Assembly: GCF_028471905.1 (NCBI RefSeq) | Contig: NZ_CP116902.1 | Span: forward strand, 1,772,501 to 1,836,500 | DNA length: 64,000 bases | From: Aneurinibacillus uraniidurans | GTDB taxonomy: Bacteria > Bacillota > Bacilli > Aneurinibacillales > Aneurinibacillaceae | Direction: 5' to 3' | In this document: positions 57,727-62,239 of the stretch, one piece after another | Numbering within the stretch: position 1 is the first letter of the stretch | Layout of the letters: every line of letters starts with the position of its first letter | Notes under the pieces: model-generated | Told to the model about the DNA's origin: nothing | What the model saw: only the letters and a program-made list of their open reading frames with translations | Database searches by the model: none | Program-made: the position numbers and the translations under genes

Positions 57727-58707
57727 TCAGAAACGGACACCATCGAAGGAATTTTGTTCTTTTTCTTTTTGTATACAAATCCTAATTATTTCTTTTTCCA
57801 GTAATCTAAAAGCTAGCGAATGCTTGTGAGTCTGTGGATTGATCGGCCCACCGAAATTTGCCTCGCGTCTATCCACATTGCATATGATTTTCGCTTCTTT
57901 GATTGTGTAATGCTCTCCCTCTTTTATGTCTTCGTTTTCGATGATTCCATGAAAAGGAATTTCGTCTACTATCTGTTGATTAGGAACTTCTTCTTTATTT
58001 ATAACAGCTGTATAGGTAATCGTTTTACGAACCATTCCACTGATAAAAACAATCCCATCACAAATTTTTTTAACCTGGGCAAAGAGTTCTCTCTCAACAC
58101 GAGTAGAATTACGTTTGGCTGGAGGAATAAGCTGTGTTCTGTGATCGGTCAATATGATGCAACAAGTGGGCTTTTGTGGAGGTCCCGGAGGTCCCGGAGG
58201 TCCCGGAGGTCCCGGAGGTCCCGGAGGTCCCGGAGGTCCTGGAGGTCCTGGAGATCCCGAAGGTCCCGGAGGTCCCGGAGGTCCTGGAGGTCCTGGAGGT
58301 CCTGGAGATCCCGAAGGTCCCGGAGGTCCTGAAGGTCCTGGAGATCCCGGAGGTCCTGAAGGTCCCGGAGGTCCTGAAGGTCCTGGAGATCCCGGAGGTC
58401 CTGAAGGTCCTGAAGGTCCCGAAGGTCCTGAAGGTCCCGAAGGTCCTGGAGATCCCGGAGGTCCCGAAGGTCCTGAAGATCCTGAAGGTCCTGGGGGTCC
58501 TGGAAGTCCCGGAGGACATTGGAAACGTATCCGGCATATGTGACATTTGTTTTTTCGCCGGGGCTTTGCAAGACATGAGAGATAATGTGGCTTTGGCCGC
58601 TTTCTTTTCTTACAACTCTTACAACATAAAGAATTGCTTATTTTACAGGTTTTATATGGTATTTTTCGCCGATTTTTCTGACCTGTTTTTTTCCTCCTTT
58701 TATTCAT
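57727..58707 (-). CDS. Collagen-like probable spore-surface protein
   Basis: 326 residues, start at 58707 eight bases after AAGGGAG. A very basic Cys-rich N-terminus (about 1-65) is followed by about 37 uninterrupted Gly-X-Y triplets (about 66-177, mostly G-P-P, G-P-S and G-S-P), then a globular C-terminal domain from T-C-C-I-I-L-T. That domain is related to the end of the divergent gene's product: T-Q-L-I-P-P-A against T-Q-L-V-P-P-A, and K-T-I-T-Y-T-A-V against K-Y-K-Y-T-S-V. It resembles DUF3794/SPOCS-like domains. Trimeric stalk with globular head, like BclA, is the inference. No signal peptide, as usual for spore-surface proteins. Confidence 0.85.
58172..58515 (-). repeat. In-frame coding tandem repeat of Gly-X-Y triplets
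   Basis: 9-base units (GGTCCCGGA and GGTCCTGAA type on the plus strand) encode the collagen-like stalk; no interruption in the Gly periodicity. Confidence 0.9.
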
Positions 58708-58737
58708 CAATAGCACTCCCTTGACATTCCTCTATTG

Positions 58738-58766
58738 GACTATATGCGTAAGAGAAAGTAAAGGTG
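58738..58766 (-). promoter_or_regulatory. Candidate sigma-K promoter of the collagen-like gene
   Basis: CACC, 16 bases, CATATAGTC against the sigma-K pattern (A-C near -35, CATANNNTA at -10), 31 bases before the start codon. One mismatch in the -10. Fits late mother-cell expression. Confidence 0.35.
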
Positions 58767-58908
58767 AAAGGAAAGCATTCTGCATTGTTACTTGCTGCGG
58801 TTTAAAAAGGGGCTTTTTATCATGATAATTACCAGAACTTTCATACAAGAGATACATAAAATTAAGTATTGTTGATTTTATAAAATATAGAGAGGAGCAA
58901 CTGAGCGT

Positions 58909-60519
58909 ATGGCTGTTATCGCCAGTATAAAGGGGACTGGGCCTAAGGGAGAGGTATTAGCAGGAACAATTACAGTAGAAATTCCTGCACAAGGCGGGTC
59001 TGCTCAAATAACGGTTTGTAATGATAGTGCTGTTGGATTCATAGGATCAGCTTGTTTTGATGTACAGAACTCCGGAACAATTACAGCATCCGTTGGAGTA
59101 AACTTAAATGCGAGCTGTGGTGGAGGTTCAGGCTGTAATAGTTTTAAGGTAAAATTGAATATTTCAAGTGCGAAAGATAGAGTATTGGCTGGGCAATGTA
59201 AAACATATACTCTTTCTTCGACTCAACCGCTTACGGAAGCACAGTTTCTTAATCAAAGGGCAGGATTTAATTTACAGGGATCTGTAAACATGTGTTTAGA
59301 GGGAACTTTTAAGGATACGCACACGGAAACGGATACACACACGGACACGCACACAGACACGCACACAGATACGCACACGGATACGCACACGGAAACGGAC
59401 ACGCACACAGATACGCACACGGATACGCACACGGATACGCACACGGATACGCACACGGATACGCACACGGAAACGGATACGCACACGGAAACAGATACGC
59501 ACACGGATACGCACACGGAAACGGACACGGACACGGACACGCACACGGACACGCACACAGATACGCACACGGACACGCACACAGATACGCACACGGATAC
59601 GCACACGGAAACGGATACGCACACGGAAACGGATACGCACACGGAAACAGATACGCACACGGATACGCACACGGAAACGGACACGCACACAGATACGCAC
59701 ACGGACACGCACACGGACACGGATACGCACACGGATACGCACACGGAAACGGATACGCACACGGATACACACACGGATACGGATACGCACACGGAAACGG
59801 ACACGGATACGCAAACAGATACACACACGGATACGCAAACAGATACACACACGGATACGGAAACGGATACGCACACGGAAACGGACACGGATACGCAAAC
59901 AGATACACACACGGATACGCAAACAGATACACACACGGATACGGATACGGATACGCACACGGATACACACACAGATACGCACACGGATACGCACACGGAC
60001 ACGCATACAGAAACGCATACGGAAACAGTCACAGAGACAACTTCAATAACGACGACAATGACTACTACACAATGCCCAATTCCGAATCCACAAACGTGCT
60101 GTATTTACCCTGTAGAGTTTAAGACTCAGCTTGTGCCTCCAGCTTTAGAAGGCAGTTTTGAAGTCTACGATGTATCTGTAGATGCTGTCATTGAAGCAGT
60201 TTGTCCAGAGAAAGTAATCATCTGTGGTAAGGTGACCAAAAAATATAAGTATACGAGCGTTAAACAGGATGGGACGAGAAATCCAGAGTGGAGAACCGAC
60301 GAAAGGGCATTCCAGTGTATAATCGACCGGGATGATGCTGATGAAGGCGATCCAAACGATTATGTTATTACGGGAATGGCTGTTCTAAGTAAAGGGTATG
60401 CATCCTTGCACAATATAAGTAAAATGCCGGATATTAATCATCCAGGCAAAACCGTTAATGTATTCTGGAGTTTCCGGGAAACGGATCTAATTAAGGTATG
60501 TATTAGAAAAAGAACATGA
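58909..60519 (+). CDS. Asp-Thr-His-Thr repeat protein, probable spore-surface protein
   Basis: 536 residues after GAGAGGAGC. Residues 1-135: a beta-rich domain with several Cys ([25 protein letters not shown]). Residues ~136-374: about 240 residues built almost only of D-T-H-T, with E-T-D-T and occasional D-T-Q-T variants. A Thr-rich linker follows, then residues ~395-536: a domain related to the collagen-like neighbour's C-terminus (T-C-C-I...T-Q-L-V-P-P-A...K-V-C-I-R-K). The repeat is acidic and His-rich, a possible metal-binding or O-glycosylated stalk. No signal peptide. I do not know a described family with this repeat. Confidence 0.85.
59308..60032 (+). repeat. In-frame coding tandem repeat (ACGCACACGGAT type)
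   Basis: About 725 bases of near-exact 6- and 12-base units encoding Thr-His-Thr-Asp/Glu. Third-position changes (GAT/GAC, ACG/ACA) are scattered. Such DNA is prone to slippage, so length should vary between strains. Confidence 0.9.
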
Positions 60520-60552
60520 TCATTAATCACACAAAGTAATAGATTTATGGTA

Positions 60553-60591
60553 TAAAAGGGCAGGTTCGTGGTTGAACCTGCCCTTTTTTGA
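60553..60591. terminator. Bidirectional terminator
   Basis: AAAAGGGCAGGTTC...GAACCTGCCCTTTTTT between the convergent repeat-protein and glycosyltransferase genes. Confidence 0.9.
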
Positions 60592-60604
60592 TCGGGAAAA
60601 AGAT

Positions 60605-61900
60605 CTAACTAAAAGAATGGATAATAGGCTCCAATTGATTTTTCCAAATCCAATGAGGTGTATAACGCTGTCTTGCCATTGTTTTCGCATAAACAATGGG
60701 ATTACTGTAGATTCTATTCATAATGATTTGTGCGTGCTCTTCCAGATAGGCTTTCTCAGAAGGATGGTATGTTTCCCGTGTATCGAATCCGAAATTTCGC
60801 GCATCCCATTTCATAAAATAAGCCTGCAAATGTTTACCTAATTCTTCTAAGGCAGGAACGCGTTCATTCAAGACGAGGAAGTTCCCTTTACTAGCAGCTT
60901 CAAGAACCGTTAAACCAAATGATTCGGAATAAGAGGGACATATGAACAAGTTCGATAGGGAGAATAGTTCTAAAATTCCTTTTCGAGGGAAGCCTTTGTG
61001 GAACTCTTTTATATCCGAGGTAAATAACATATCTCCGTTTTCCAAACCAAACGAAACACCACATGCACGAACGAAATCTTTATAAGTCTGAGGTGAAATA
61101 TCACTTCCGGGGAAACAATCACAGAAGACGACTTTGACGTTTTTATCGCATTTCTTTTTGATTGCCCCGCATATAGCGGCTACTTTATCAAATTTTTTCG
61201 CAGTCGTTAATCGTCCGGGATAAACAACAAGTATATCTGCGTTCATAATAGTAAGATGTTCCGCGACCAATTTAACATCATCACTTGCAAAGTTTAGCAG
61301 ATCAAGACTATTGTTAACGACTCTGCATCTTTCCACAGGCACGTTATATTGTTTTGCCAGGGCAGAGATTCCAGATTGTGTAGGGTATACATATATGGTG
61401 TTTGGCATGGGAGTATAACGTGCGGAAAATGGCCATTTAGGGCTTGCCGGACGATTTACTGGTGCAGAATGCGTAAAGGCAATAAATTTTAGATGGGGTA
61501 AGCGTTCCTGAGCTTTTCTTACTGCTATGTTATGCAATAAATGCCATCCTTGATAATGAATATCATGCATAAAACAAACGTCGGTGTCGCCTAGCTTTTG
61601 CACTAAGTCGTCGGCAATAGCATTTGCTTCTTCGAAAAATGTATCATGAACCTGTCCTTCAGACTGATTGTAATTCTGCCAATGGATTTGTTTTCCGTTG
61701 AGATGATTACAAACTTTCACCCAGTTGATTCGTTTATCCAGAAAAATTCCATATCGTTTATCCAATGGACAAATATCACTAACTAACACGCTTGTCTCAA
61801 TGCCCGCATCCAATAACATGCGAACTTGTTCAGCTACCACATTAACTAGAGAGTACGAACTATCCAAGCCGTTAAACATCGTTAGAAGTGCCACTTTCAT
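60605..61900 (-). CDS. GT4-type glycosyltransferase
   Basis: 431 residues, ATG at 61900 after AAAAGGAGGA; a longer frame upstream has no site. GT-B fold: K-V-A-L-L-T-M-F-N-G-L-D, a middle Y-P-G-R-L-T-T-A-K-K, and a donor motif with S-E-S-F-G-L-T-V-L-E-A-A (E-x7-E). It lies next to two repeat-stalk proteins, one extremely Thr-rich, so it may glycosylate them as happens to BclA (inference). Confidence 0.85.
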   Translation of the reverse strand: MKVALLTMFNGLDSSYSLVNVVAEQVRMLLDAGIETSVLVSDICPLDKRYGIFLDKRINWVKVCNHLNGKQIHWQNYNQSEGQVHDTFFEEANAIADDLVQKLGDTDVCFMHDIHYQGWHLLHNIAVRKAQERLPHLKFIAFTHSAPVNRPASPKWPFSARYTPMPNTIYVYPTQSGISALAKQYNVPVERCRVVNNSLDLLNFASDDVKLVAEHLTIMNADILVVYPGRLTTAKKFDKVAAICGAIKKKCDKNVKVVFCDCFPGSDISPQTYKDFVRACGVSFGLENGDMLFTSDIKEFHKGFPRKGILELFSLSNLFICPSYSESFGLTVLEAASKGNFLVLNERVPALEELGKHLQAYFMKWDARNFGFDTRETYHPSEKAYLEEHAQIIMNRIYSNPIVYAKTMARQRYTPHWIWKNQLEPIIHSFS

Positions 61901-62239
61901 CCGTTTCGGTTCCTCCTTTTTCACGTATGATCTCACAGGGAGAAAAAGAAGGGACAACGCCCCATAAGTAGTGACCATTGCTAAGGGTTTGTCCTGATTG
62001 TTTTCTTCTTTTTTCAACACTGCACAGGTAGTAATGGACGATTTATTATATGATGCTGTTTTGCAGTATGTGAAAACAGCTCTTTTCGCATAACTATTTG
62101 AGGGGCGCTATCTATGTGTAGAAAGAGTATAATAAATTGGCAGAAGTAGACACTAAAAGAGGTTATTTTGTATTGGCTATAGAAAACAGAAAAATATTAT
62201 GGAATGCCTCTGATTTTTGTTTTATGTAAAGGAGATACG
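61901..62239. other. Divergent intergenic region, no gene seen
   Basis: About 340 bases between the glycosyltransferase and selO. On the minus strand CATATAATA (about 62045-62056) fits a sigma-K/sigma-E -10 box for the glycosyltransferase; on the plus strand TATAAT near 62131 may serve selO. Neither has a convincing -35. Confidence 0.35.

Follow-up and report, generated by a model that had tools for sequence, protein, structure and literature searches.

Three adjacent genes, encoding a collagen-like protein, a protein with a threonine-alternating stalk and a glycosyltransferase of family GT4, lie between positions 57727 and 61900 of a 64,000-nucleotide stretch of the Aneurinibacillus uraniidurans genome (contig NZ_CP116902.1, 1,772,501 to 1,836,500 of the forward strand), hereafter the window. 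The first two genes are divergent and the latter two are arranged tail-to-tail, 85 bases apart; the frames of all three are intact. An earlier sequence-only reading had described a divergent pair with related C-terminal domains and unrelated stalks, followed by a GT4 gene, and this arrangement is borne out by the open reading frames (ORFs), by a BLASTP match between the two C-terminal domains (E 4e-14) and by a match of the third protein to PF00534. Taken together with the distribution of related genes, the locus probably encodes a modular display system of the spore surface, anchored through the C-terminal domain, with a rod and a glycosylated threonine stalk directed outward. The genes and domains are as follows, with the scores of AlphaFold2 (AF2) models given as the predicted local distance difference test (pLDDT) and predicted template modelling (pTM) scores.

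57727–58707, minus strand: collagen-like gene, 326 amino acids (aa) from the ATG at 58707; PF01391, 65.9 bits
58510–58707, minus strand: Lys/Arg- and Cys-rich N-terminal segment, from the translation
58177–58509, minus strand: 37 Gly-X-Y triplets; 9-bp tandem repeat, 37.6 copies
57757–58182, minus strand: C-terminal SPOCS-like domain, collagen-type; profile match to residues 179–320, tree side 100/99
58909–60519, plus strand: gene for the Thr-alternating stalk protein, 536 aa
58909–59313, plus strand: N-terminal CBM2/Ig-like beta-sandwich, putative distal tip; AF2 pLDDT 84.7, pTM 0.81
59314–60024, plus strand: (D/H/E/Q)-T stalk of 237 residues, 118 of them Thr; 12-bp tandem repeat, 59.4 copies
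60073–60516, plus strand: C-terminal SPOCS-like domain, stalk-type; AF2 pLDDT 95.5, pTM 0.83, and tree position
60605–61900, minus strand: GT4 glycosyltransferase, putative stalk O-glycosyltransferase; PF00534 and co-occurrence with Thr/Ser stalks

The longest ORF of the collagen-like gene (57727–58716, minus strand, 329 aa) begins with a GTG at 58716, and on inspection of the sequence a better ribosome site precedes the ATG at 58707. Similarly, the longest GT4 ORF spans 60605–62020 on the minus strand, while the ATG at 61900 has a clear ribosome site and gives a protein of 431 aa, in agreement with homologous ORFs of 426–435 aa and with the position 61900 given previously. The repeats, estimated in the sequence-only reading at about 37 Gly-X-Y triplets and about 240 stalk residues, were counted as exactly 37 triplets and 237 residues. 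The Gly-X-Y run, which is the part matching PF01391, occupies residues 70–180 of the 329-aa ORF, and 18 of its triplets are GPP and 12 GPS. Among Pfam matches up to E 5, no C1q/TNF-like BclA-C domain was found in the collagen-like protein, the C terminus of which aligns to SPOCS, and no DUF4183 end domain was found in either fibre protein. NCBIfam matches to MSCRAMM and Scl proteins were rejected as low-complexity artefacts, far under the cut-off.

The N-terminal domain of the stalk protein, modelled from an 8-row alignment, has chitinases as its top structural matches (Z 10.1, 2.8 Å over 112 residues), followed by a cellulose-binding domain (Z 9.0) and then by superoxide dismutase (SOD) and other sandwiches; sugar binding by this tip would be a guess from the model. 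Homologues of the domain are present in other proteins of the end-domain family. The faint likeness to spore-appendage Ena proteins (DUF3992) previously suggested for it was not recovered, as Ena is absent from the Pfam matches to E 5 and the model is a CBM2/Ig-type sandwich. An Ena origin was set aside on these grounds, with a PDB sequence match at E 1.4 only and a generic CBM2/SOD/Ig structural list, although absence from the Pfam and structural lists does not exclude an Ena fold. In Ectobacillus, a second Thr/Ser-dense protein of 400 aa, the start of which resembles this N-terminal domain, adjoins a stalk gene (L014, 3755–4957).

The shared end domain and its fusions

The two C-terminal domains of the window are homologous, with 29% identity over 143 columns of the BLASTP match. 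When the stalk protein's domain was searched against the window's own genome, no further copies appeared at E 1 or better. A difference between the two predicted C-terminal folds, which would speak against the pairing proposed in the sequence-only reading, is not indicated by this match, the fold itself having been predicted for the stalk protein's domain only. This model is confident and all-beta, with six long strands, and was built from a 54-row alignment of end domains (A2) that excludes L010 and L040, both the same protein as L004, the two-piece copy of L021 and the cut copy of L024. No solved relative was found by sequence up to E 5, and alpha-crystallins were rejected as structural relatives because the best VIA rows, at Z 4.5, were too low.

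When A2 was aligned by hhalign with a profile built on 14 SPOCS domains (A4), which were taken from three clostridial genomes and include no member of the window's domain family, the probability was 90.6% (E 1.3e-6, 55 columns); the controls, in which the N-terminal domain was compared with A2 and with A4, gave 0.3% and 0.1%. A jackhmmer search from a SipL domain recruited two family members out of a small preselected set that contained them, and it was used for domain borders only. The Pfam SipL/SPOCS family (PF12673, DUF3794) was matched weakly by four of the first six family members, and two oxidase-fused relatives exceed its cut-off of 23.6 bits, at 24.7 bits. The shared C-terminal domain is thus similar to SPOCS, which serves coat assembly in SpoVID, CotE and SipL and is named after them; in SpoVID it is described as contacting CotE and SafA (PMC10867305; see also PMC10659427). 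The likeness extends to the core motif and the coat setting. The window's domain differs in being longer (about 145 aa), in its fusion to display modules, in the scores of the window copies, which are under the curated cut-off, and in the Cys-rich CP..NPQ(T/S)CC lead of the stalk-type members. The collagen protein's domain also matches the CsxC family (NF045794) weakly, at E 0.0027; its 17.8 bits fall short of the cut-off of 135. In Clostridium sporogenes, CsxC is described as belonging to the exosporium (PMC4942563).

An alignment of six end domains, used to scan GTDB contigs, identified 34 loci in 28 genomes, all in the Bacillota. The modules that precede the domain in these relatives include collagen rods and Thr/Ser-rich stalks (TSTS, SSSS, TTTT), the latter preceded by N-terminal domains of two or more kinds, one of them related to that of the window. 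Further modules joined to it are a GIDAEDGG-type domain, NHL-type propellers, a DUF3344-like module (22.7 bits, under the cut-off of 27.2) and a region weakly matching NF038132 (31.7 bits, cut-off 90), and the domain is also found alone. Seven fusions to multicopper oxidases were recognised by homology, PF07731, PF07732 and PF00394 being above cut-off in the single one scanned; these proteins (L026, L027, L028, L030, L035, L036 and L038), of about 740 aa and with the domain at the C terminus, come from clostridia, Vallitaleaceae and Chengkuizengella, and may possibly be spore-surface laccases with a built-in anchor. The mounting of one end domain on differing stalks, first proposed for the window pair, is therefore real and far wider than that pair. 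L005 (E 0.003) was rejected as a family member, being an unrelated gene with an internal stop, and L043–L046 are weak matches, of which L043, the one that was read, is an unrelated protein.

In an unrooted maximum-likelihood tree of the 54 domains, three stand-alone copies share one side with all 11 collagen-fused copies (14 rows, 100/99), and a set of 19 (99/96) contains 13 of the 14 stalk-fused copies; the L035 oxidase fusion, which missed the label motif, was here counted as OTH, and L029 and L042, with their C-terminal extensions, as SOLO. Because collagen-type and stalk-type domains lie on separate and well-supported sides of the tree, the window pair appears to represent two old paralogous lines rather than a recent copy. 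In the tree, the partner of the window's stalk-type domain is the one from the Neobacillus cucumis protein (100/99, 61% identity), the N-terminal part of which is of another type, suggesting an exchange of modules. The end domain is rare, being present in five of 398 genomes of the class.

An alternative to C-terminal docking is that anchoring is effected by the N-terminal parts of the proteins. In the family's collagen proteins the N termini are rich in Cys and might be crosslinked into the coat, and both BclA and F-Anchor, which are compared with this system below, are described as anchored through an N-terminal leader (PMC11952670). However, the N-terminal parts are diverse, comprising oxidases, propellers, collagen and sandwiches, and it is the end domain alone, with its resemblance to a coat-assembly domain, that they have in common, making the N-terminal alternative unlikely.

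The threonine stalk and its probable glycosyltransferase

Alternation in the stalk (residues 136–372) is strict: one phase is threonine at 118 of 118 positions, and the other consists of D (56), H (44), E (15) and Q (4). The threonine codons are ACG (97) or ACA (21), such that 21 of 118 third positions depart from the majority and none of the 236 first and second positions varies, although the repeat copies share ancestry and these sites are not independent. This pattern of codon positions demonstrates that threonine is maintained. It also bears on the suggestion that the repeats are slippage products of little function in a vestigial, horizontally acquired locus. The 12-bp and 9-bp tandem repeats, the lack of a match in six congeners and the position of the stalk protein's domain nearest to that of Neobacillus, at 61% identity, are what such an origin would predict; yet the three intact frames, the conservation of the first two threonine codon positions while the wobble position varies, and the recurrence of the gene set across genera render it highly improbable.

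The GT4 enzyme matches PF00534 (Glycos_transf_1) at 37.8 bits, above the cut-off of 26.4, and its NCBIfam matches are all far under cut-off. A homologue with 64–72% identity is present in 11 of the 29 domain-bearing genomes searched (28 through the named loci, plus G025), and these are exactly the 11 that have a Thr/Ser-dense stalk, defined as at least 0.6 Ser/Thr within 30 residues, a cut-off chosen post hoc with the data already known. None of the 18 other domain-bearing genomes, five of them with collagen fusions, contains a homologue at E 1e-30. As the genomes share ancestry, no probability is attached to this co-occurrence. The association extends beyond genomes with the end domain: among the 398 genomes of the class, the enzyme was detected at E 1e-80 in four, namely the window's own, G022, G268 and G275, and the gene tail-to-tail with it is Thr/Ser-rich in all four (densities 0.60, 1.00, 0.97 and 0.90, respectively), even though the shared domain was not matched in G022, G268 or G275 at E 1e-5. 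Counts of intervening genes are approximate here where ORFs overlap. The stalk protein of G275 bears an ice-binding-like adhesive domain. Conversely, at loci without the glycosyltransferase in the examined DNA, just five of 379 ORFs reach a density of at least 0.8 (in L011, L012, twice in L014, and in L023), and the three genomes from which they come all have the enzyme elsewhere. Given this co-occurrence and the genomes without the domain, the glycosyltransferase tracks Thr/Ser stalks, not collagen or the end domain. Glycosylation of the stalk, which the sequence-only reading raised as a possibility, is thereby well supported at the level of gene content, and the GT4 enzyme is most likely the O-glycosyltransferase of the stalk.

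It might still be argued that the enzyme acts on the collagen protein or in the synthesis of a general spore polysaccharide, and that it adjoins the stalk gene by an accident of locus history. BclA-type collagens are described as glycosylated (PMC11952670), and the glycosyltransferase gene is tail-to-tail with the collagen gene in L015, L019, L022 and L025, and, in L024, with a domain copy that is cut. However, collagen fusions without a dense stalk, in Salimicrobium, Paenibacillus, Allobacillus, G025 and Litchfieldia, are also without the enzyme, and it adjoins Thr/Ser-rich proteins in the three genomes with no domain match, so that this explanation appears quite improbable. A similarly low probability is assigned to the view, following from the earlier suggestion that an acidic His/Asp stalk could bind metal ions, that the stalk is mainly metal-binding or an acidic polyelectrolyte and not a scaffold for glycans. 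Its composition, with 44 His and 71 Asp/Glu, is suited to such a function, but the dense stalks of relatives are Thr/Ser-rich without His or Asp in genomes that have the same glycosyltransferase, implying that metal binding would be a lineage-specific extra, and the common feature is threonine, which in the window's stalk fills each alternate position with no exception.

Other genes related to sugars are found near stalks. L017 contains a GDP-mannose dehydratase and a GT11 enzyme, and L022 contains DUF7164 and a galactosyltransferase-type gene. DUF7164 recurs near glycosyltransferase and Thr/Ser stalk genes (L015, 4313–5296; L022, 4313–5161; L090, 5577–6419) and is found close to the glycosyltransferase even in G022, where the shared domain was not matched; the gene may be part of the glycan pathway. 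In Aquisalibacillus, genes for ATP sulfurylase, APS kinase and a sulfotransferase lie between the glycosyltransferase and the stalk gene (L024, 2470–4981), suggesting from gene content that the stalk glycan could be sulfated there. The Thr/Ser-stalk proteins of L090 (9402–11678) and L093 (3819–4700), from two genomes, share, as judged by eye, the N-terminal sequence IALEELALAHI(I/V)NAEAEKIQ, which is not seen in the window's protein, and the region has no Pfam match.

The spore link and a model of surface display

The neighbourhoods and promoters of these genes provide a link to sporulation. In G025, cotJB (PF12652) and the gene for a CotJC-type Mn catalase (PF05067) have immediately upstream of them a propeller fusion and a copy of the domain that stands alone (L003, 222–3050), and a CotZ gene (PF10612) is divergent from the collagen gene in four of the six ORF-listed stalk loci (L015, L017, L019, L022, L024 and L025, of which L024 is cut there and L017 has no CotZ there). 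Sites resembling the consensus of sigma-K promoters, which consists of AC, a spacer of 16–18 bp and CATANNNTA, are found upstream of all three window genes:

58738–58765, minus strand: AC-17-CATATAGTC, 7/8 positions, collagen-like gene
58837–58863, plus strand: AC-16-CATAAAATT, 7/8 positions, stalk gene
62044–62071, minus strand: AC-17-CATATAATA, 8/8 positions, upstream of the glycosyltransferase gene

Across the family, full sites precede 13 of 52 domain genes, compared with 52 of 2600 dinucleotide shuffles and, among the other ORFs of at least 250 aa at these loci, 12 of 147 (Fisher p 0.0028). The count excludes duplicates, L010, L040 and genes less than 200 bases from the end of a locus. 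A broader count at 7/8 positions or better, which included duplicates and SPOCS genes of other families, gave 34 of 62 genes against 24% of shuffles and 45 of 178 other ORFs. The spore-surface location put forward in the sequence-only reading thus stands to the extent of indirect support, from homology to SPOCS, from the CotJ and CotZ neighbours and from the sigma-K-like promoters.

In the mechanism proposed, the SPOCS-like C-terminal domain would lock each protein into the outer protein layer of the spore, leaving the variable part directed outward, as either a collagen rod or a long Thr-alternating stalk with a small beta-sandwich at its tip. The GT4 enzyme, judging by its co-occurrence with such stalks, would add sugar to the stalk threonines in the mother cell, producing a stiff, hydrated glycoprotein brush. 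The concept is paralleled by BclA, F-Anchor/F-ENA and SgtA/BclA3; the end domain, the range of cargo and the proposed polarity differ. As in the BclA-type collagen nap proteins, a collagen rod is found here, from sequence, with a glycosyltransferase gene nearby. BclA is described as anchored by an N-terminal leader, with a C1q-like head at its end (PMC11952670, PMC7333573), whereas no such head was matched here and, because docking is proposed through the C terminus, the polarity would be reversed. In F-Anchor/F-ENA of Bacillus thuringiensis, the small end domain DUF4183 is described as occurring alone as a fibre subunit or terminating a collagen rod (PMC11952670), a similar use of one small domain alone or fused to a rod, although the end domain itself differs. 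SgtA of Clostridioides difficile is described as placing O-linked N-acetylglucosamine (O-GlcNAc) on threonines of BclA3 peptides (PMC7157674), an activity similar to that proposed for the window's GT4, on threonines of a spore fibre protein; the acceptor of SgtA is the collagen repeat, while that proposed here is the threonine stalk. No description of these end-domain fusions was recognised among the literature matches listed, in a limited search that is no proof of absence.

If correct, the proposed mechanism would provide a concrete candidate for how spore-surface proteins are anchored independently of the BclA leader, and would tie a single dedicated glycosyltransferase to a defined acceptor rich in threonine. 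Were the domain alone sufficient for docking, this would explain how cargo as unrelated as rods, brushes and oxidases reaches the spore surface, and would make the domain a handy C-terminal tag for spore display. A more speculative extension, which we put forward tentatively and with some doubt, is that an undescribed outer layer of the spore is built generally from the SPOCS-like domain. Stand-alone copies would form a lattice and fused copies would dock rods, glycan brushes and enzymes, multicopper oxidases among them, into it, with a dedicated GT4 glycosylating the Thr/Ser brushes; in that case it would amount to a plug-in display system of natural origin, spanning Bacilli and Clostridia.

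Several observations weigh against the proposed C-terminal docking and stalk glycosylation at the spore surface. The Cys-rich N terminus of the window's collagen protein could equally be the anchor, and the domain is N-terminal in two relatives (L029 and L042). The window copies do not reach the Pfam SipL cut-off, the collagen-type scoring 21.1 bits against 23.6 and the stalk-type giving no match, and Foldseek found no PDB match for the C-terminal domain model at E 0.001 or better. In addition to the post hoc density cut-off, Litchfieldia has a weaker Thr-rich stalk (TTTPAV, density 0.50) without the glycosyltransferase. The sites of the two fibre genes of the window match at 7/8 positions only, a level common in shuffles (24%), and neither is among the 13 full matches. 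CotZ was not found in the window's own genome at E 0.001, and it was discarded as the anchor there for want of a genome match. Finally, the end domain was detected in none of the six congeners searched, nor in the four other members of the taxonomic family that were searched; the genus can therefore do without it, and horizontal gain and repeated loss are both possible.

Four of the six congeners hold a different protein, in frames of 254–266 aa (L053–L056, of which L053 and L054 were read), that has a borderline match to SPOCS, above the cut-off in two cases.

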